Assembly: GCF_021134715.1 (NCBI RefSeq)
Contig: NC_060023.1
Coordinates: forward strand, 1,922,001 to 1,986,000
From: Daphnia pulex
Lineage: Eukaryota; Arthropoda; Branchiopoda; Diplostraca; Daphniidae
DNA length: 64,000 nt
Direction: 5' to 3'
Part shown: positions 7,844 to 27,188 of the stretch, piece after piece
Numbering within the stretch: the first letter of the stretch is position 1
Layout of the letters: each line of letters opens with the position of its first letter
Notes under the pieces: model-generated
Told to the model about the DNA's origin: nothing
The model's input: only the letters and a program-made list of their open reading frames with translations
The model's database searches: none
Made by a program: the position numbers and the translations under genes

Positions 7844-8807
7844 TTAGGGCAGTCGAGTGGCAGTGACGATGGCCGGTGCCGGAACGAACAAGGCAGTCTT
7901 TGTTACAGGAGTAACTCTGCTGGCGGATGAAGAACTAGCAGTGGAAGAACTGGAGCTGGAAGAACTGGAGGAGCTAGTCGCTGAAGAAGAAGAAGAAGTT
8001 GAGCTAGTTGCTGAAGAAGAAGAACTAGAAGAAGGTGTTGAAGATGAGCTGCTGCTACCACCGCCGCCAAAAATTTGTGAAAGTATGGACGCAAGTGCAG
8101 CAAGTCCAAACCTGCCGTTTGGTACTACAGGTGCCATATAGAATGGATTAAATCCTGGAAATGCAGCAAACAATTTCATTACTAGGCTAATCAAAATCCA
8201 GTTTTCGGTGTTAAGAAAATTTGAAGTCTTACCGTAATACTGGCGGAAGCCTTGCAGAGGAGGATCGACGTTACTGTACGTGTTGAGTTTAGCGTTGTTG
8301 ATTGTATACATAGGTGCTTGAATACTGGGAACCACTACAGAGCACAAAATTAAATTTATTTAAAAAAGATTGAAAAAGAAAATGAGATGTTTTAAGTCAT
8401 CAGAAAAATCCAACTCACCGTAATCGTTGAAATCTGCAAATTGTCCTGGAAAGTGCATGGGTAGCATGATTTGTTTGGCCTCCCTTGCGGCCCACGTAGG
8501 TTCGTCAGATGACTTTGGTGTCGGACTTCCATTTACCAGCCACAAAGTCAATCCCAACTAATTCAATTAAACGGAAGTTAAATTCATTTTTCAGAACAGA
8601 CAATTAAAAAACAAATATTTGAGATCAACCAACGGGTTTTGGCGCATAGTATTAAGTCAACAAAATAAAAATCTAAAAAAAATTTGTTTAGTGTTATACT
8701 CTAGAAATAGTAATGCACTTTAGCGCTACACTTCTAAATCTATTTGACACAACTGTTAACGTTAATATGACTAAAAGTATTACCAGTAACATAGTCAAAA
8801 TGGACAT
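7844..8807 (-). CDS. Secreted serine-rich protein, left paralogue (191 aa, four exons)
   Basis: Exons: 8,784-8,807, 8,419-8,557, 8,233-8,334 and 7,844-8,154. All have GT-AG borders and the phases close to an open frame of 192 codons including stop. Exon 1 (MSILTMLL) plus the start of exon 2 (LGLTLWLVNGS) forms a signal peptide. The mature protein has a Pro/Tyr/Asn-rich middle, an Ala/Leu patch ending SQIFGGG, then about 60 residues of nearly pure Ser with scattered Thr/Ala, and a conserved tail ending TRLP. The gene at 26.2-27.2 kb has the same exon lengths except in the Ser-rich exon. Low-complexity Ser tracts with a secretion signal suggest a cuticle, matrix or mucin-like product. This is inference; no named family is recognised. 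Confidence 0.8.
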
Positions 8808-13271: not shown

Positions 13272-13439
13272 GAAAACTATGGGGTGCGGATTGAACACTT
13301 TTTCCAAAAAAAATGTTCAATAATCGATTACCATATTTGATTTAAAAACAAATTGATAATCGATTTGAATATTGAAATCAAGTTGAAAATAGATTCAAAA
13401 ATTGAAAATCTTTTGAAAACGATTGCAAAAAGTGAAAAT

Positions 13440-13805
13440 GATTTTAATAAATGTCATTGGAAAACGAAAATGATTTTGAAAACTTACATTGAATTTGAAC
13501 AATGAAAATAATTAAAGAAAATGAAAATGATTTTGATAAAACGAAAATGAATTTGAAAAAATAAATTGAAAATGGTAGAATGATTTTGAACAAGTGAAAT
13601 GAATTTGAAAAATGAAAATGAATTTAAAAAATGTCATTGGAAAACGAAAATTATTTTGAAAACTTGTATTGAATTTGAACAATGAAAATAATTAAAGAAC
13701 ATGAAAATGATTTTGATAAAACGAAAATGAATTTGAAAAAATAAATTGAAAATTGAAAAATGATTTTGAACAATTTAAATGAATTTGAAAAATGAAAATG
13801 AATTA
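13440..13805. repeat. A-rich tandem repeat, ~180 bp period, in the TIR
   Basis: Two adjacent copies with a period of about 180 bp (both contain 'aatgtcattggaaaacgaaa', at about 13,451 and 13,631). They are built from shorter degenerate units of the type 'aaaatgaatttgaaa'. The mirror copy lies at about 23,580-23,945. The position between the terminus and the start codon suits transposase-binding sites or a promoter-proximal spacer. No function can be read directly. Confidence 0.8.
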
Positions 13806-13981
13806 AATAATCTATACATTAGATTAAAGTAGTTGAATGGAAAATTACGTGAAATTATTGGTTTTTTCAGCTGATAGCGACGGTGGCGCCGTCCCAACAA
13901 TAGCGCCACACGAGAAAAACCACCATTAAACGCCGTTTACTTGAAACAACGTAATAGTTAGATGTTTTATTCTCGTCCAAA

Positions 13982-16900
13982 ATGGACGGTTTTAAGGACA
14001 TCCAAGAGTTGCTCTCTCAACCTATTATTAGGAACATAGCAGATGCAGCCCTGCAATTCCTCCAAGGAATTGCACAGCACTCTCAAAATGATAATCCTGG
14101 CTTGGGATTGTCTCAGCAAACACCACGTATGTAAATTTTTATTTTCACTACTTGCTGTGTATGAAAAAAGGCCTAACAATGTTATTTTTCTTTAATCTTC
14201 TCACAGGAATTTCACCTGCCCAAACTGGAGGTGAGAATCCTGGAATTAATCCCATCCAAATGCTGGGCTCATCTCAGCCAGGTATCTCAGTTTTTTGTTC
14301 GATATTGGCTGTGTATGAAAAAGGCCTAACAATGTTATTTTTCTCTTCTCACAGGAATTTCAACTGCCCAAACTGGAGGGGAGAATCGTGGAATTAACCG
14401 CATCAACATGGTGGGCTCATCTCAGCCAGGTATCTCAGTTTTTTGTTCGGTATTGGCTGTGTATCAAAAAGGCCTAACAATGTTATTTTGCTCTTCTCAC
14501 AGGAATTTCAACTGCCCAAACTGGAGGGCAGAATCGTGGAATTAATCCCATCCAAATGTTGGGCTCATCTCACCCAGGTATCTCAGTTTTTTGTTCGATA
14601 TTGGCTGTGTATGATCAAGGCCTAACAATGTTATTTTTCTCTTCTCACAGGAAATTCAACTGCCCAAACTGGAGGGCAGAATCGTGGAATTAATCACATC
14701 CAAATGCTGGGCTCATCTCAGCCAGGTATCTCAGTTTTTTGTTCGATATTGGCTGTGTATCAAAAAGGCCTAACAATGTTATTTTGCTCTTCTCACAGGA
14801 ATTTCAACTGCCCAAACTGGAGGGCAGAATCGTGGAATTAATCCCATCCACATGCTGGGCTCATCTCACCCAGGTATCTCAGTTTTTTGTTCGATATTGG
14901 CTGTGTATGAACAAGGCCTAACAATGTTATTTTGCTCTTCTCACAGGAATTTCAACTGCCCAAACTGGAGGGCAGAATCGTGGAATTAATCACATCCAAA
15001 TGCTGGGCTCATCTCAGCCAGGTATCTCAGTTTTTTGTTCGGTATTGGCTGTGTATCAAAAAGGCCTAACAATGTTATTTTGCTCTTCTCACAGGAATTT
15101 CACAACCAGTTATTAGAGATCCTATTCAGCAGCAGATATCTTTTCAACCAATATATCGTTTTCAGCAGGACGGTCAGGATTCTCATCTTACATGTACTGT
15201 TGATTCACTTGGTGGTGTAGCGTCCTTACAAGACATTTGGACCTCGCATGCATTAGTACAACAAGGTTCTGTGCCCACATTGCCAGTGATGCACCAACAA
15301 CTTGTTGAAGAGATTCCAAGCAGTGGAGCAATCAATTCAACACCTCAGCAGTCCTTGATAGGTGTTTTACTTGTACCATTCTCCTAGATGTTAACATTCT
15401 TATTTTTTTTTAATTTGTTCTTACAATTCTTTTCAGAATTTTCCCTCCCAATATGTTCTTCAATCAACCCAACGGCAACAGATATCTGTGAACGTTTTGG
15501 GCACAATGTATATGCTATTTGTAACGATCAAATAAGTGATCATCGTGGACAATTTCCGACATTAAGCATTGATTTTTCCAATTCCTTTACTGCCGAATTG
15601 AAACAGCAATATTCCGATGAGTTTTCGATAGAAATGTTGTGTGATCTTCTTGGTAAGAATGGTGCGAGGTTCCTAATATCCTGCTAGATAATTTTTACTT
15701 GTAATGCAACACATTTCTCAATCCCAGATAAAGGTTACAATGTTCCAAAAATCTCCAAGTTACTGAATATTGAACGATGGAGGATCAAATATCACATGAA
15801 AAAGGCAGGATTAAAGTCACGTCAATTTTCCAACATCTCCAACCAGGAATTGGACTGCATAGTAAGCGAAATAGTTCGGATGTTTCCAAACTCTGGTAAA
15901 TATTTGGATAGTTCAAATTATAGCATTACAATATTTTATTTTTTATTTCTTTGAAGGTTTCAAAAACTTTATAGGTCAATACAATAGTCGAGGCCCTAAA
16001 GTTAGTCGGGAACGACTGAGGGAATCCTTCTGCAGAGTTAAGGAATTCAGGATGGATCCACCGAGAAGAACGATAAAGAGACGAGTGTACAATGTTAAAG
16101 GACCGCTTTCCTTGTGGCACGTCGATAGTCATCACAAACTATCTAGGTTAGTCAATTTCCAATATTTTAATAATTATCAACTTAATAATGTTGTTGTATT
16201 TAGATGGAAATTTTATGTACAAGGATGTGTTGATGGATTCTCCAGGTTAATGGTCGTATTAAACCTGGCATCCAACAACCGAGCAGAAACTACACTGCGC
16301 CAATTTCTTATCGCTGTTGCGAAATGGGGTTTACCGTTGAGGGTTAGGTATGTGTATGCCCTATAGAGTAAAAATAACAGTAAAATATCGTTATTGTTGA
16401 TTGTAGGTCAGACCACGGAACAGAAAACTACGGTGTATGCGACTTCATGTTGGTGGCCAGATCGGAGGTTTCCAATCCATTTATCGCCGGTACGTCAGTT
16501 CATAATCAGCGAGTGGAACGTTCATGGCGAGATGTATTTGAAACCGCGTTGGAGCCCTTTCATGCTATGTTTTAGTACGTATTTCTTGTTTTTTTTTTTT
16601 TACCAAACATTTTCATAATTTTCCTTTCTGTGTTTTAGTGCATGGGAGGGCAACGGACATTTAAATCCGTCCAACATGATCGATCTGGTTTCCCTTCACA
16701 TCTCATGTAAACCCCTCTTAATAAAAACAATTGAATGTTTTGCCCACGGATGGAACAACCACCCTCTTAGCACGGAACATAATGAAACTCCCACACGACT
16801 TTTCCACGGAAAGTTGATTGAATTTTGGAATGCTGAAGGCGACGATTGTGATCTCTTACGACAAGTGAGTGTCATTGTTCTAAAAAAACCAGTTCAATTA

Positions 16901-17123
16901 AACATTTTTTACATTTTTACATTATTAGGACGTTGCAAAGATGGAAGAGGCCTTATGTCAGCTACCTTCCTACCCTCACGATGACTACGATATTGAAGAT
17001 TTCTTAACGAAGGATGAAATTCAAAGTTTGAATGTAAACGGGAGTCTAGTTACCCTCGAGAACGCATTTCAAGTCTACATGTATGTGAGAACAGCTGTAG
17101 AAAATATCATTCGTCTCCGATAG
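13982..17123 (+). CDS. Transposon DDE integrase/transposase (predicted 722 aa, 15 exons)
   Basis: Exons: 13,982-14,126; six of 75 nt at 14,207, 14,355, 14,503, 14,651, 14,799 and 14,947; then 15,095-15,361, 15,437-15,652, 15,728-15,895, 15,957-16,146, 16,204-16,347, 16,407-16,574, 16,639-16,864 and 16,929-17,123. All borders are GT-AG and the frame stays open to TAG. Residues 1-48 form a helical start (MDGFKDIQELL), followed by six 25-aa Gln/Gly/Asn repeats (to about 198). A helix-turn-helix-like segment (KISKLLNIERWRIKYHMKKA) lies near 370-395. The integrase core follows: D472 in WHVDSHHKL, D529 in SDHGTENYG and E564 in NQRVERSWRD, a D-57-D-35-E spacing with the N-x-x-VER motif of rve integrases. 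It should cut and join the element ends in the nucleus. No inactivating change is seen, so the element may be autonomous. Confidence 0.88.
14207..15021 (+). repeat. Tandem array of 148-bp exon-plus-intron units (left arm)
   Basis: Six units at an exact 148-bp period. Each holds a 75-nt exon between AG and GT borders; 73-nt introns separate them. Every exon is phase 1 at both ends, so each adds 25 residues of the type GISTAQTGGQNRGINPIQML..., and skipping any number keeps the frame. Unit-to-unit differences are a few substitutions (for example NPIQ, NRIN, NHIQ; SSQP, SSHP). The mirror array in the right arm is at 22,364-23,178. Confidence 0.93.
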
Positions 17124-17779
17124 GTTATATTTGCTATATTTCTACGCCATTTAATCGCAGAAATACATTCCTATTACGAGCAAACGAAATCTCCCTAGAT
17201 TTCTTTTTTGGTTCACTTCCGTCGTTTGATGGGTCAACTTATCAACTTATTTAGTTATTCACTCAAGGCGAAAGCAAAAGGCATACGGTTAAAATTAATG
17301 GAAAGAAATTGTTTTTAGATTCAACCTGTTTATTGAAAAACAATTGGGAATATTGAAACAAAAATAATCAGCAGAATTACCAACAATTCTTGAAACAGTT
17401 CAACGGCTGACTCTGAGTAAGAGACTCAATCGGTTGACCTAACTGACCAAATTCGGATGTAATTATTCGACAAAAGTTACCGATGATTCAAATTCAGCAT
17501 CGCGTTAGCTGCAGAAATTCTAACCTTGAAATTCGGACAGCTCCGAAAAACCATCAGAAGACTATCTAGTAATTTTTCCTTAAGAGACAAAACTTTATTA
17601 TTTTCCAACTTGGCGACAAATTACATTTCGTTTTACCATCCAATGTGAAAACGCTGTAAGAAGCGTGATATTTTGCAATATTTTTCCGCACGCGTAGCAA
17701 GCATACCATCGATTATACAAACAGAAAATAAAGTTAGCAAAAATAGTCCTGCATGCTAAAGGGGAATGAAGAAATAACT

Positions 17780-18818
17780 TTCATTAAATTTCCTGTTGTA
17801 GCTTGTTTAGCAACGACCGAAATGGCCTTTTCCAGTAAATTGGCCGTATCACTTCCTTGAGTCGGAACATCCGTTATGATCTTAACGAAAATTCCCAGGG
17901 CACGTATTCCATTGCATCGAACCTGGAAAAGGTAAAAAGTATACTAGAAGTGTGAATTTATATACATATTGAAGTCAAAATGAGTAATTCTTACTTTCAT
18001 AGGCCCCTGAGCCGCATTAACGGCCGTTTGTATGAGATTAATCAAGAAATTTCGCGGCATGTCTTCTAACAACGAATTAATTAAAAAAATAAAATGTTGC
18101 TGGTTTTCAGTTTAAACAAGTAAAGTAGTAGGATACGTACTGGTCTTTATCCAATGTATCTACCAAATTGCCTAGTGCCCAACTAGCATTTAATGCCACA
18201 AGGAGATTACTGTGTAAAAGTAAAGGCAGTACTTTTTCCGAACTGTCCAACAATAACGATGCATCCTGTATTGTACCAAAATGTGTGCTATTAAAACATT
18301 CCGTCTTAGAATGCATTGAAACTTACATAATGGAGTGTGTTAAACGTGACGGGAAAGCCTAAAGTTCGTATGGAAGCTGCTCGAACCCCAGCGTCAGCAT
18401 CCACGGCACAGCCCAGGGCCAAGGTGACAAAGAGGATTCTCAATTCTCGCTAGAAACGGATGTTTTAGAATTAATGTGCATTTAAATTTGTTTGTAAAAT
18501 AACATACGGCAAACACTCGAATATTTGTGATCCAACAGTAGCAAGAGCGGCACAGGCTTCTGCTTTCAGGGGAGGAATAGAAGGCGCTTGTAGTACGTCT
18601 GCGAAACCATACCGAATTATGTAAATTCACAGCTGAATAGCTTCGTCGCGTGAAATAAATTGATCTGATAACACAGAAAGCATGACAAATTTGAAAAAAT
18701 TCGAAATAAATGTTTGAAATGTATTTACTGGTATCTTCCTTTTTCATTTCTTGTAAAATGCTGGCACCAACTTTTTCATACTGACGATCATGGATGACCG
18801 CTGGTGGAACTGCAATCC
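17780..18818 (-). pseudogene. HEATR6-like host gene fragment captured by the transposon
   Basis: Several minus-strand exons with intact splice sites encode HEAT/armadillo-type helices. One at 18,327-18,449 reads ...LALGCAVDADAGVRAASIR. One near 18,140-18,262 contains NASWALGNLVDTL. One near 18,005-18,065 contains NFLINLIQTAVNAA. One ending at 17,922 starts VRCNGIRALGIF. Their order and motifs match the middle of HEATR6 (HEAT repeat-containing protein 6), as I know that family. The N- and C-terminal thirds are absent. An exon near 18,505-18,685 shows a stop in the continuing frame unless a further acceptor near 18,610 is used. Another exon, 18,750-18,818 (...VIHDRQYEKVGASIL), I cannot place. 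Introns are retained, so capture was from genomic DNA. It is probably non-functional as HEATR6. Confidence 0.7.
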
Positions 18819-18885
18819 CTGAGAATCGTAAAATGAAAATTGGGTGAATGAATTTTGAAAAGGTAACAAATATTTTTTTAATTAC

Positions 18886-19425
18886 TTGGAGGCTACATCG
18901 ACGTATACAGTTTTGCAAAACGAATATGGAAATCGAGTACCAAGTTGCTCTTCGTAGAACTCAAAAGTTTCATGTACGTAACGAGCTGTTGAACGCAGAA
19001 AAGGCATCAGCGGAGGAAGGCAAAAATGAGTCAATTCTTGCATGCACGGATCCACTAAAATTTCAAATAATCTTATACTAAAATTTAAGTTAAATTAGAT
19101 TACCGAAATTTTCTAACATTTCATTTAAATTACCCAACAGCTAGTCCGATATTAGGTGCCGTAGTCGGCATGGAAAGTAAGTAGTGAAAAATTTTCCGTC
19201 GAAGGTCTTGGGTGTAGACTACCTCCGTCAAGTCACCACACGAGATGGCAGTCATGGAAGCATCTTCAGTGAACTCAAGTTTCCACGTACAAACCTAGCG
19301 TTTGGAATGTATCACGATAAAGAAATATGCTAACAATCGAAAATAAGAAATTATTTACGTTCTGACCTCTGAATAGGAATCGATGCAAGGAAACCACAAT
19401 CGTGCTGAATTTTCCCAGCCATAAG
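18886..19425 (-). pseudogene. TAF2 host gene fragment captured by the transposon
   Basis: Three consecutive exon pieces match TAF2, the TFIID subunit with an M1-aminopeptidase-like fold. They are 19,367 to about 19,419 (ending LWFPCIDSYSE), 19,134-19,294 (VCTWKLEF, then [16 protein letters not shown]) and 18,886-19,071 (FEILVDPCMQELTHFCLP, then FYEEQLGTRFPYS). Donors and acceptors are intact and the phases join. Only this inner portion of TAF2 is present: no start and no C-terminal part. The upstream exon has no clear acceptor, so the captured piece probably begins inside it. It is immediately followed on the same strand by the HEATR6-like fragment, giving a possible chimeric transcript. Confidence 0.8.
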
Positions 19426-19729
19426 AAACCCATAAGAAGAAACAACAAAAATTTGAACTTTTGAATTCTGTGTATGCAAACGGGTTTTTCCAGATTTAAT
19501 TGAATATATGGGAGTACATTCTTTTCCTTTGTAAAGTCACATGAGCAAAAAGAATGAAGAACAGTTAAAACGTAAAACGAATAAAATGAGTGAAGTAACC
19601 AACTCCCGTACATAAAAATTAGTTCCGAATAATAAAGTTGAGTTGAAGATGATAATCCTCAACGTATCTCATTGCAAACCAACGATCAAATCATTCACAA
19701 TCAGCTTAGTAGTAAAACACAAAAAATAA

Positions 19730-19800
19730 CCACCAAAAGACAACAATTGTTGTCTTTTGGTGGCAGCTACCATAAGACCTAGGTCTTATGGTAGCTGCCA
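19730..19800. repeat. Two overlapping perfect palindromes at the HECT stop codon
   Basis: 19,730-19,763 is a perfect 34-bp palindrome centred between 19,746 and 19,747 (central part caacaattgttg). 19,761-19,800 is a perfect 40-bp palindrome centred between 19,780 and 19,781 (central part gacctaggtc). They overlap by three bases. The HECT stop codon (19,779-19,781) sits at the centre of the second. They could form hairpins in the RNA or cruciforms in the DNA. Transcript 3'-end formation, a capture junction or a copying artefact are all possible. Confidence 0.9.
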
Positions 19801-22800
19801 TCCGTCTCTGTCAAGGCACTCAGCCACAACATATCCATTTCGTTTTGCGAAGATGTAATAGGAATCGAAAAATTATGAAAACAAGTCGACGCTTCAGGTC
19901 GTGTCAAGATATTTTTTTTACTTAACACAAACTTGTATGCTAACTTTTCCTTACGTACTCTAGGCACAATCTTGGACGCTGTGATGAACCGATAAACAGA
20001 AGCTACTGTCAATTCATTGCCGTCGCTATCTTTTCCTTTGATACGGCCATCTATATAGAAAATAAACGATATTTAGAGATAATCGTAAAATAATCATGCC
20101 AAGTGATACCTTCAATTCTTCGCACAAAAGACAGGAACTCATCGAGAGCTCTTTCCTCCGAAAAACGTTGAAAAGGGTTTTCTGCAGGTTCTTCTGCAGG
20201 TTCCAACAGATTTTCAAACTCTGTCGAGGATAATTTGATTGCCTGAAACAATTGCCGTATTCCTTTACGCTTAAGCAATCCATCCACATCCAAAATGCTC
20301 AAGCCCTCTTTAAACGGATGATCGTCCGGAAACGCATCATACCATTGTAAGATGAACGGGGAACAGATTCGAAGTTGAACAATACCAACGGCGCACCATA
20401 CTCCATAAGCGTAGAGGATTGAGTAATTCTCCTTTTTCGTTTCGCGGTCTTCTCCATTCTCACAGGATGAAATATAGGAGACATGAACGAGTTCCATTGT
20501 TTCTTCCATGCTATCATACATTCTCGTAATAAGGTCCGTTCTCAATCCTCCGTAATCCGAACCCGCCTCACCTACGAAAGTGATGATGAGGGGGAACTTT
20601 ATCTTTTCTCTGCAATGAAATGAAAGTTAGTTCTTACATTAAAGAGGCACTGTTCAAATAAATTACATGAAATTCTTGTTTCCGACTGCGGCAATACAAT
20701 CTTCATAAAGATGGCTTCGGCGAATGACCAGTTCATTTTTAAACTCAGAATCAGAATCGAAAATTTCACTGTGATCCGCAAACATTACTTCACTTTTATG
20801 TTTGAGTAAGGTGTCGATTCCATCGACATCAGAATCCGAATTCGTTGATGGTGAAAATTGGCTTGGGTAAGAGGACGGATCGGCGACAGAGTATCCTTCA
20901 GTAGGAGGTTTCGGAAGAGATGAAAGTAAATCCCTACCACAACCGGAAGGATCGGCGACATCTTCTTTGGAAATTTCACAGTTTGATTCCCCATGGGAGG
21001 CCACTGGATTTCTGTTACCGGACATGGATCGCAAAGAATATCCAAGACGATAACCAGACGGCCCAGCAATAGGAGATATATCCGATGACGTTGTACACGA
21101 ATTGCCAGCACAAGATCCACGGGTGACACTTTTCGATCTGGTGTTAGGCATGTCGTACTTTTCACTCTCGTCTTCGTATCGGGTCTTTTTCACCAATTTG
21201 GTCTCGGCTCCATAATCCTCATTTACATTACATGCGCTTGATATAAATAAAAACTTAAATTCTGTTATTATTTTTACAACCATGTATAACTTACCATTCC
21301 ATTTCGTGCGTATCTAAAATGGCCAAATCGTATTCTTTGCCGCAATGTTCGCATTGAGCCATTATCTGGCTCATCTCAACTGTTTTGGGTAGGCCTAATT
21401 GTTCATCCTCTCTGCGAGGTGAAACCACGATTCGACGGGAGCAGCCCTTCACAAAACAAAACCATAGTAACAGATAGACATTTAAAGATAATAAAATTTT
21501 ACCTTCAGTATGGAGCCGTTAACAATAGGGGAGCCCAACTCGTATAGAGACAAACTATTACCTCCACCAAATGCCCACATTTTGAGACCTCCTTTCAAAC
21601 TTCTGAAGATTGGAAATACTCTAATAGCAATACGATCGTTAGGACCTATTTTAAATGGAAAAAAAAATGAACTCACTCTTTAATACGCCAGTCGACGGTA
21701 GTGGATTGGTCTGTTTCCCAAAAAGTAACTTGTTTGATTCCCAATCCTTTCGATTGGAGAATCTTCTCCTCCATTTTGGTTGGAGCTCTTGGGTTTGTAC
21801 GGTCGACAGTTTCGACCCCGATCACGTTCATTTCGAAATCCGGTTTTTTCGGAATGTTGGAAAATATCATTTTCCTTCGATCGGCTGGTACCGAATGACG
21901 TCTAGGCGTTACACCGGCAGACCCGTTACTTCCTATGAAGGGTTAAATTGACAGTTGAGAGTTAACAGATAATAACGAAAAATCGTAACACCCTTAAAAT
22001 ACATAAAATTTTTGCACTTACTTGGTATGATTGAATATTGTTTGCCAAGGCCATCATAAATAGTAGGATATTCTGGACCGAGACCTGAGATTAATGATGA
22101 GATCACATTAGCTTATATTAATTTTACTCACACCCCCCTCCTTCATTAAACTGATCAGAAACCTAATTTTAAAGGAAACGCTATAGTATTCCGATGCTTT
22201 AGTGTATACCTGGTGTTAGCTGAGAGGAGCCCATATTGTGGAAGTGGTTCATGCCAGGATTCTGCCCTCCAGTTTGGGCAGTTGAAATTCCTGTGAGAAG
22301 AGCAAAATAACATTGTTAGGCCTTTTTGATACACAGCCAATACCGAACAAAAAACTGAGATACCTGGCTGAGATGAGCCCAGCATTTGGATGTGATTAAT
22401 TCCACGATTCTGCCCTCCAGTTTGGGCAGTTGAAATTCCTGTGAGAAGAGCAAAATAACATTGTTAGGCCTTGTTCATACACAGCCAATATCGAACAAAA
22501 AACTGAGATACCTGGGTGAGATGAGCCCAGCATGTGGATGGGATTAATTCCACGATTCTGCCCTCCAGTTTGGGCAGTTGAAATTCCTGTGAGAAGAGCA
22601 AAATAACATTGTTAGGCCTTTTTGATACACAGCCAATATCGAACAAAAAACTGAGATACCTGGCTGAGATGAGCCCAGCATTTGGATGTGATTAATTCCA
22701 CGATTCTGCCCTCCAGTTTGGGCAGTTGAATTTCCTGTGAGAAGAGAAAAATAACATTGTTAGGCCTTGATCATACACAGCCAATATCGAACAAAAAACT

Positions 22801-23403
22801 GAGATACCTGGGTGAGATGAGCCCAACATTTGGATGGGATTAATTCCACGATTCTGCCCTCCAGTTTGGGCAGTTGAAATTCCTGTGAGAAGAGCAAAAT
22901 AACATTGTTAGGCCTTTTTGATACACAGCCAATACCGAACAAAAAACTGAGATACCTGGCTGAGATGAGCCCACCATGTTGATGCGGTTAATTCCACGAT
23001 TCTCCCCTCCAGTTTGGGCAGTTGAAATTCCTGTGAGAAGAGAAAAATAACATTGTTAGGCCTTTTTCATACACAGCCAATATCGAACAAAAAACTGAGA
23101 TACCTGGCTGAGATGAGCCCAGCATTTGGATGGGATTAATTCCAGGATTCTCACCTCCAGTTTGGGCAGGTGAAATTCCTGTGAGAAGATTAAAGAAAAA
23201 TAACATTGTTAGGCCTTTTTTCATACACAGCAAGTAGTGAAAATAAAAATTTACATACGTGGTGTTTGCTGAGACAATCCCAAGCCAGGATTATCATTTT
23301 GAGAGTGCTGTGCAATTCCTTGGAGGAATTGCAGGGCTGCATCTGCTATGTTCCTAATAATAGGTTGAGAGAGCAACTCTTGGATGTCCTTAAAACCGTC
23401 CAT
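19779..23403 (-). CDS. Transposon-borne HECT-type E3 ubiquitin ligase (predicted 873 aa, 15 exons)
   Basis: The first seven exons lie in the right TIR (23,259-23,403, then six 75-nt exons down to 22,364) and are the same as those of the integrase. After 22,290 the gene has its own exons: 22,210-22,290, 22,022-22,084, about 21,687-21,932, 21,503-21,645, 21,295-21,446, 20,667-21,236, 20,110-20,609 and 19,779-20,050. A zinc-finger-like CEHC...HEMEC motif is split across 21,295-21,446 and the next exon. A Ser/Pro-rich linker follows. Then the HECT N-lobe (LIITFVGEAGSDYGGL), and a C-lobe with the catalytic motif RPEASTCFHNF (Cys about 840, 34 residues from the end). HECT enzymes carry ubiquitin on this Cys as a thioester. 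The donor at 21,687 (GTATTA) is weak; GTGAGT at 21,676 breaks the frame. No other defect is seen. Confidence 0.82.
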
Positions 23404-24107
23404 TTTGGACGAGAATAAAACATCTAACTATTACGTTGTTTCAAGTAAACGGCGTTTAATGGTGGTTTTTCTCGTGTGGCGCTATTGTTGGGACGGCGCC
23501 ACCGTCGCTATCAGCTGAAAAAACCAATAATTTCACGTAATTTTCCATTCAACTACTTTAATCTAATGTATAGATTATTTAATTCATTTTCATTTTTCAA
23601 ATTCATTTAAATTGTTCAAAATCATTTTTCAATTTTCAATTTATTTTTTCAAATTCATTTTCGTTTTATCAAAATCATTTTCATGTTCTTTAATTATTTT
23701 CATTGTTCAAATTCAATACAAGTTTTCAAAATAATTTTCGTTTTCCAATGACATTTTTTAAATTCATTTTCATTTTTCAAATTCATTTCACTTGTTCAAA
23801 ATCATTCTACCATTTTCAATTTATTTTTTCAAATTCATTTTCGTTTTATCAAAATCATTTTCATTTTCTTTAATTATTTTCATTGTTCAAATTCAATGTA
23901 AGTTTTCAAAATCATTTTCGTTTTCCAATGACATTTATTAAAATCATTTTCACTTTTTGCAATCGTTTTCAAAAGATTTTCAATTTTTGAATCTATTTTC
24001 AACTTGATTTCAATATTCAAATCGATTATCAATTTGTTTTTAAATCAAATATGGTAATCGATTATTGAACATTTTTTTTGGAAAAAGTGTTCAATCCGCA
24101 CCCCATA
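22283..24107 (-). repeat. Right terminal inverted repeat (1,825 bp)
   Basis: Reverse complement of 13,278-15,102, ending at 24,107 in CCGCACCCCATA. It carries the promoter region, start codon (23,401-23,403), first exon and six 75-nt exons of the HECT gene on the minus strand. The inner boundary is where the HECT gene's eighth exon departs from that of the integrase. Confidence 0.95.
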
Positions 24108-24330
24108 GAAAACCCCGGTTCAGTTCGATGTATCGATTAAATTCATTTCGAAACATAATGTTTCCTCCGGCTAAATGTGTTATAAAACCCACTGCATTCA
24201 ACCCAAAATATCCTGGATAATGGATTCCACGAGCAACGTAGAAAATTGAGACGTGGAATAAAAATTGGTTCAACAATATAATGCTTAGTACTCGTGTATT
24301 TGACGTGCTAGTGATGGGATCGCTGTAGCA

Positions 24331-26183: not shown

Positions 26184-27188
26184 TTAGGGCAGTCGAGTGG
26201 CAGTGACGATGGCCGGTACCGGAACGAACAAGACAGTCCTTACAGGAGCAGCTCTGGTGGCGCCACTGGTTGAAGAGCTAGAGGAAGTGGTGGAAGAAGT
26301 GGAACTAGTCGTGGAGGAAGTGGAACTAGTTGTGGAACTAGTGGAGGAAGTGCTAGAGGTGGAACTAGTCGTGGAACTAGTGGAAGAACTAGGCGTGGAA
26401 CTAGTGGTAGAAGAAGAAGAACTTGAGGAGCTGGACGAAGTTGTTGAAGATGAGCTGCTGCTGCTACCGCCGCCAAAAATTTGTGAAAAAAAGGACGCAA
26501 GTGCAGCAAATCCAATCCTGCCTTGTGCTGGTACAACAGGTGCCATATAGAATGGGTTAAATCCTGGAAATGCAGCAATCAGACAATTATCGTACTATAG
26601 GCTAATCAAAATCAATTTTTCAGTTTAACATTTGAATTTATCTTACCGTAATAATGGCGGTAGACGTGCGCAGGAGGATCGACATGGCTGAAAGTGTTTA
26701 CTTGACCGTTGTGGATTGTATACCCGTTTGTTTGAATACTGGGAACCACTGCAGAGCACAAAATAAAATTTTATTTTAAGAAGATTGAAAAAGAAAATGA
26801 GATGTCATCAGAAAAATCCAACTCACCGTAATCGTTGAAATCTGCAAATTGTCCTGGAAAATGCATGGGTAGCATGATTTGTTTGGCCTCCCTTGCGGCC
26901 CACGTAGGTTCGTCAGATGACTTTGGTGTCGGACTTCCATTTACCAGCCACAAAGTCAATCCCAACTAATTCAATCAAACGGAAGTCAAATTATTTTTCG
27001 CTTCAGTTATCAAACATTTAAAAGAACAAAAAAACAAAAGAAAATTTGAAAGGACTTAATGGTAAACCAATGATCCTAAATATCGCTGCGCTAAACTTAA
27101 ATCAAATCTAATCGACACAATTTGTATTATACAACGTTAATTTGATTGAAATATAGTACATTACCAGCAACATAGGGAAAACAGACAT
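26184..27188 (-). CDS. Secreted serine/threonine-rich protein, right paralogue (214 aa, four exons)
   Basis: Exons: 27,165-27,188, 26,827-26,965, 26,647-26,748 and 26,184-26,563. The first three have exactly the same lengths as in the left paralogue (24, 139 and 102 nt), and exon 2 is almost identical. The signal peptide is MSVFPMLL plus LGLTLWLVNGS. The last exon is 69 nt longer because the low-complexity tract has expanded, here as Ser-Ser-Thr-Thr blocks (SSTTSSTSS type). It keeps the same tail ending AIVTATRLP. Exon conservation against diverged introns shows purifying selection on the non-repetitive parts. Likely a secreted structural or mucin-like protein; inference only. Confidence 0.8.

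Follow-up and report, generated by a model that had tools for sequence, protein, structure and literature searches.

How do two genes that face each other come to begin with the same protein sequence? In the window (the whole 64,000-nucleotide stretch of Daphnia pulex DNA analyzed here), a plus-strand integrase gene and a minus-strand HECT-like gene have their first 198 residues in common, and their first seven exons have the same sequence. The first-pass annotation had claimed two opposed genes with a shared N-terminus of roughly 200 residues; the sequence, the NCBI gene models, and the codon constraint on exon 1 all bear this out, and its coordinates and counts proved correct. The locus is probably an autonomous-looking transposon of the IS3EU type, in which two convergent genes receive a common start from the terminal inverted repeats (TIRs), with exon 1 as a putative tag and the following repeats as its linker.

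Two Genes within One Element

The DNA transposon occupies positions 13278-24107 (10,830 bp), with the termini TATGGGG..CCCCATA. The features of its two ends are as follows.

13272..13277, left target-site duplication (TSD) GAAAAC, read from the sequence; the identical six bases lie beyond the right terminus
13278..15102, plus strand, left TIR of 1,825 bp with the terminus TATGGGG, from arm comparison and terminus reading
13851..13981, plus strand, putative promoter or 5' leader of the integrase gene; 2 of 131 aligned sites differ from each arm of a relative on C1; mirrored at 23404-23534
13982..14126, plus strand, exon 1 of the integrase gene, with the start codon and an apparently constrained, predicted helical peptide
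14207..15021, plus strand, six 75-nt repeat exons of the integrase gene with a period of 148 bp (14207-14281, 14355-14429, 14503-14577, 14651-14725, 14799-14873, 14947-15021)
22283..24107, minus strand, right TIR with the terminus CCCCATA, an identical inverse copy of the left TIR
22364..23178, minus strand, six 75-nt repeat exons of the HECT-like gene
23259..23403, minus strand, exon 1 of the HECT-like gene, with the sequence of integrase exon 1
23404..23534, minus strand, putative promoter or 5' leader of the HECT-like gene, identical to 13851-13981 through the TIR
24108..24113, right TSD GAAAAC, read from the sequence

The arm-to-arm comparison gave 0 mismatches across 1,825 bp, and another comparison of the arms gave slightly longer ones. 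Each TIR contains the leader, the start codon, exon 1, and the six 75-nt cassette exons. Every repeat unit on the left equals its counterpart on the right (6/6), and all six units within one arm differ. The proposal that homogenization keeps the TIRs alike agrees with this pattern: 1,825 bp are free of mismatches, although repeat exons within a single arm show a mean difference of 6.6%. The identity stops 8 nt into exon 8 of both genes. The genes thus diverge at the inner edge of the TIR, as had been claimed, but this edge lies inside exon 8 and is no exon border. As for a common promoter, the sequences upstream of both start codons are identical, while the promoter itself is putative, assigned from sequence. 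A 38-bp core of the 131-bp leader is also retained at loci on C9.

The shared module is in phase, without a stop over its 198 residues, and none of 20,000 base shuffles remained open. It continues in frame into exon 8 of the integrase gene (15095) and exon 8 of the HECT-like gene (22290), each followed by seven more gene-specific exons and then a stop. The resulting models have 15 exons each and no internal stop, and encode 722 aa (integrase, plus strand) and 868 aa (HECT-like, minus strand). The splice sites were placed by hand, and GT-AG in all 14 introns per model, of which the first seven have one and the same sequence in both genes, is therefore to some extent built in. This does not apply to the open frame or to the match with the NCBI models. 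Two NCBI Daphnia pulex proteins, LOC124197236 isoform X2 and LOC124197233 isoform X4, are composed of exons from this window. One of the two (P0002) corresponds to the integrase model minus exons 5 and 6; the other (P0003) corresponds to the HECT-like model minus exons 6 and 7 and minus a further 39 residues from its interior. Their clusters have 5 and 9 member sequences. The NCBI pipeline derives alternative isoforms mainly from transcript alignments, and RNA reads inside the TIRs cannot be assigned to one arm. When residues 1-73 served as a protein query, these two D. pulex proteins were the only ones recovered from 27 candidates.

The interior of the element contains the gene-specific exons and two captured host gene fragments.

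15095..17123, plus strand, integrase exons 8-15, with the DDE core and a PF24764 match (15095-15361, 15437-15652, 15728-15895, 15957-16146, 16204-16347, 16407-16574, 16639-16864, 16929-17123)
17241..18771, minus strand, host gene fragment, HEAT-repeat-like, 88-94% identical to C11:754929-756776
18806..19428, minus strand, host gene fragment of TAF2, 92% identical to C10:2391067-2391689 and 93% to C8
19730..19800, at the HECT stop codon, two perfect palindromes that overlap each other, one of 34 bp and one of at least 40 bp
19779..22290, minus strand, HECT-like exons 8-15, with weak HECT matches (22290-22210, 22084-22022, 21932-21677, 21620-21503, 21446-21295, 21236-20667, 20609-20110, 20050-19779)

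The integrase matched the Pfam family rva_4 (PF24764) with E = 1.2e-64, and rve with E = 2.1e-6, below the rve cut-off. D422, D479, and E514 of P0002 are invariant across 7 aligned proteins. In the 518-aa integrase part, Pfam matched no zinc-binding integrase domain.

The HECT identity of the second gene is weak and comes from sequence comparison. Its product reached E = 0.017 and 15.2 bits against Pfam HECT, under the cut-off of 23.9 that would assign it to the HECT E3 ligases, and its best PDB match had E = 0.018. An N-lobe piece and a TCF active-site piece align weakly, in order, to pub2 and HUWE1, and neither is significant alone. The gene is absent among the 59 matches of a genome-wide Pfam HECT search, and the protein carries no precomputed Pfam domain. 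An AlphaFold model of P0003 alone was set aside (mean pLDDT 39). Exons 12-13 of the HECT-like gene encode a C2HC motif around CEHC...HEMEC, without a Pfam match above cut-off, which we take to resemble a UBZ-type ubiquitin-binding zinc finger. Exon 8 of this gene is itself a diverged seventh repeat unit, located outside the TIR. By eye, the HECT stop codon is in the same place in relatives on C5 and C2 and not in one on C8. The palindromes at this stop codon were not seen in the C5, C2, and C8 relatives compared, and are perhaps a template-switch scar.

The two host fragments, from different chromosomes, adjoin each other between the integrase and HECT-like genes. The C11 source gene, presumably HEATR6-like, gave weak Pfam matches only. 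The translation of the C10 locus corresponds to TFIID subunit 2 (TAF2; E = 3.7e-47). Outside the element, two similar serine-rich open frames (AAFPGFNPFYMAPVVP) lie at 7844-8359 and 26184-26594 (minus); since they are alike on both sides, the element may have inserted between tandem serine-rich paralogues.

Exon 1 and the Repeat Exons

We compared exon 1 between copies by first, second, and third codon position. The window and the minus arm of the C1 relative showed 2, 1, and 13 differences over 32 codons. The window and a C9 copy (L042) showed 6, 1, and 20, and the C1 minus arm and the C9 copy 4, 0, and 16. The excess at third positions (13/16, P = 1.2e-4; 20/27, P = 1.8e-5; 16/20, P = 2.5e-5) was evaluated by a binomial against one third, and the three comparisons share sequences and so are not independent. 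Another C9 copy (L053) differed from the window by 6, 1, and 21. For the window versus the C1 minus arm, NG86 gave dN = 0.069 and dS = 0.96. Two C9 copies of exon 1, with 4 differences between them, showed no excess (1/4 at third positions), and the window and C2 copies (14, 7, and 16 over 31 codons) are too diverged to test. From these codon patterns, exon 1 looks to be under constraint.

The repeat exons (~150 residues) gave no sign of constraint in the codon-position comparison: their variable sites numbered 4, 3, and 4 by codon position, and they vary more than their introns (0.066 vs 0.035). The structure prediction that the first-pass annotation had suggested for the module yielded two helices in the exon-1 peptide, at residues 2-11 and 14-34, with pLDDT values of 89, 95, and 91 in ten-residue blocks over residues 1-30. 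Exon 1 matched no Pfam family above cut-off. The idea of a common binding domain is therefore only partly supported: it could apply to ~34 constrained residues with two predicted helices, but not to a 200-residue fold, the rest being a variable repeat tract. Since constraint is confined to a short pair of helices and what follows is a loose repeat tract, we think that the module would be an association tag with a linker rather than a DNA-binding domain.

Relatives and the Origin of the Shared Start

With exon 1 as the genome query (E up to 1), we obtained 9 matches: the window and C1 contributed two each, C9 four, and C2 (6.2 Mb) a single weak one. A further relative on C2, at 9.49 Mb, was detected only through direct comparison. 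This C2 relative has convergent HECT-like and integrase genes, and its integrase begins with MDPFQNFQNLVANVPVIQSIVGAAINFLQEI, 41% identical to exon 1 within the match. On its HECT 5' side there is no exon-1 homologue in a region broken by an insertion (retroelement-like, as judged by eye), and no long TIR was found. A second C2 fragment has the HECT N-terminal exons, and exon 1 was not found in 24 kb. Fragments of relatives are also present on C8, C5, and C9, and integrase loci on C3 (one) and C10 (two). Three loci have both integrase and HECT-like pieces; those on C2 and at ~4.86 Mb on C8 are convergent, and that at ~4.91 Mb on C8 is not. At a distant integrase locus, L023 (C1:164654-168070), a 26%-identical match to the HECT C-terminal part lies at 435-686 of the locus, beside the integrase and on the same strand.

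The C1 relative is a short element with exon 1 in both arms and a TSD of its own. Its arms' inverted repeat also covers HECT sequence, and the arms may thus have originated, on sequence grounds, in a fold-back event. Both C1 arms carry the same exon-1 variant (3 differences/104 sites). Set against the C1 minus arm, the window shows 15 differences across 572 aligned sites of the outer TIR and 2 across the 131 of the leader. In exon 1 there are 13 across 92 sites of the first part, where 12 columns are gaps, and 16 across the remaining 52. Divergence is thus much higher in exon 1 than on either side of it, and in the first part it is mostly silent, so that elements seem to have exchanged variants of the module.

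Four dispersed copies of the leader and exon 1 lie on C9 near 3.57, 3.61, 4.07, and 4.19 Mb. The three copies that were read (L042, L052, and L053) sit in a larger repeated block, with main pieces 91-96% alike. In all three, the sequence that comes after exon 1, on its strand, resembles intron 8 and exon 8, which are specific to the HECT-like gene; at the third locus this match spans 37 bp. The corresponding window sequence lies outside the TIR. One copy (L052) also has a repeat exon. The C9 loci are ~24% diverged in DNA and are decaying, with the start codon lost in one of the three.

At C3:9145001-9160000 (L059, L062), a distant integrase element has 1,301-bp TIRs that are 99.85% identical and the TSD TAGCAG. 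Splice-like motifs were noted in its TIRs by eye, and no shared coding exon was recognized there. The TSDs of related copies read by eye are AAATAC and TAGCAG. In addition, eight pairs of inverted end pieces, paired by hand from the genome match rows, measure ~1.7-1.8 kb end to end and retain only the outer ~285 bp of the TIR. Their retention of this short end alone suggests that the coding part of the TIR is dispensable for mobility.

Whether related elements have the same layout thus received a divided answer: an exon-1 homologue occurs in the C2 integrase and HECT-side sequence accompanies exon 1 on C9, but none of the relatives examined proved to be another element whose two 5' ends are both intact. 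Because exon 1 is joined to HECT-side sequence on C9 and has a homologue in the C2 integrase, the shared-exon layout is probably not recent.

Second in likelihood comes a spread of one gene's start to the other through TIR copying. In its recent form, the TIR was lately enlarged by copying the module of one gene, probably the integrase, to the other end, and the HECT-like protein carries it by accident. The mismatch-free arms imply that copying was recent at least once, the C2 relative has no exon-1 homologue on its HECT side, albeit a broken one, and the C3 element indicates that long TIRs arise without shared coding exons. Against a very recent event, though without proving the contrary, the ~24%-diverged C9 loci have exon 1 joined to HECT-side sequence, and HECT exon 8 is a diverged repeat unit outside the TIR, so that the HECT repeat exons seem to predate the last homogenization. 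We regard such a recent enlargement as unlikely.

Much less credible is the view that the TIR exons are leader or noise, with the real proteins starting in the unique region and the module open by chance. It accommodates the repeat exons, with their lack of amino-acid constraint, but conflicts with the third-position excess in exon 1, the failure of any shuffle to stay open, the inclusion of TIR exons in the NCBI models, and the exon-1 homologue kept in the C2 relative. An inverse duplication of one end through mis-assembly would yield perfectly identical arms, but it is scarcely conceivable given the matching 6-bp TSD outside both arms, the inner boundaries leading into different genes, and the NCBI proteins of both genes, which derive from a contig of another length, whose assembly is perhaps, but not certainly, independent.

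Known Systems and a Proposed Mechanism

By its sequence, the element fits the superfamily IS3EU: it has a DDE core (rva_4), the TA..TA termini TATGGGG..CCCCATA that conform to TAYGG..CCRTA, and the 6-bp TSD GAAAAC. According to the available text on rust-fungus families (PMC10045372, PMC12730594), IS3EU elements have TA..TA, TAYGG..CCRTA termini and 6-bp TSDs, and their transposase and alpha-kinase genes are oppositely oriented. In a D. pulex assembly, IS3EU accounts for 0.05% in the portion of the source available (PMC8594854). The Daphnia element thus resembles IS3EU (IS3EU/GingerRoot), as far as these texts describe it, in the IS3-like DDE core, the termini, the 6-bp TSDs, and, for rust fungi, the opposed genes. 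It differs in its 1.8-kb TIRs with coding exons of two genes and in having a HECT-like partner gene; neither PMC10045372 nor PMC12730594 uses the word HECT in its main text.

For convergent genes driven from TIR promoters the precedent is MuDR of maize (Mutator), which has, in the accessible text, two such genes, promoters in both TIRs, and alternative splicing (PMC3440606, PMC3310237). In contrast to the Daphnia element, its promoter-bearing TIRs measure ~215 bp and its transposase is unrelated, the Daphnia integrase being rva_4 and not a Mutator transposase; shared N-terminal coding exons go unmentioned in that text. Pack-MULEs are similar in that the Daphnia element contains pieces of two host genes from other chromosomes, but the Daphnia element also retains its own intact integrase gene. 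Where viral or plastid genes straddle an inverted-repeat border, one gene end is duplicated because it lies inside the repeat. The second copy there is usually a truncated duplicate, unlike the start of a second intact gene at this locus. The first-pass annotation knew of no element organized in this way; likewise, shared coding exons in TIRs were not found in the open-access literature searched, as far as its texts were available, and coding exons shared through TIRs look new.

Under the reading we prefer, a transposon with a TIR-coded common start, transcription would begin in each TIR and run inward from both ends, the TIR providing the promoter and the first exons. From this arrangement we infer coupled expression of the two genes, as had been proposed. 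Alternative splicing would change the number of 25-residue repeats, and whole-arm gene conversion or copying would keep both ends alike; the identity of the TIRs may be kept for the sake of the proteins or simply by copying. The two-helix peptide of exon 1 (~34 residues) would serve both proteins as an oligomerization or docking tag, recruiting the ligase-like protein to the transposase's complex or site, and the repeat tract would form a flexible linker whose length can be adjusted.

A more speculative extension, which we advance tentatively and consider rather doubtful, is that exon 1 forms a common N-terminal badge through which the transposase and its ligase-like partner co-assemble, with a cassette-tuned linker, and that exon-1-only decoys damp transposition. 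Such decoys would come from exon-1-bearing copies, either short derivatives as on C1 or decayed ones as on C9. If transcripts confirm the layout itself, the TIRs here would code for protein, beyond serving as promoters and as sites where the transposase binds, and a single copying process would hold two proteins identical at one end. A selfish element would then have a simple route to co-evolve a two-protein complex, and concerted evolution between unlike genes could be tested directly at this locus.
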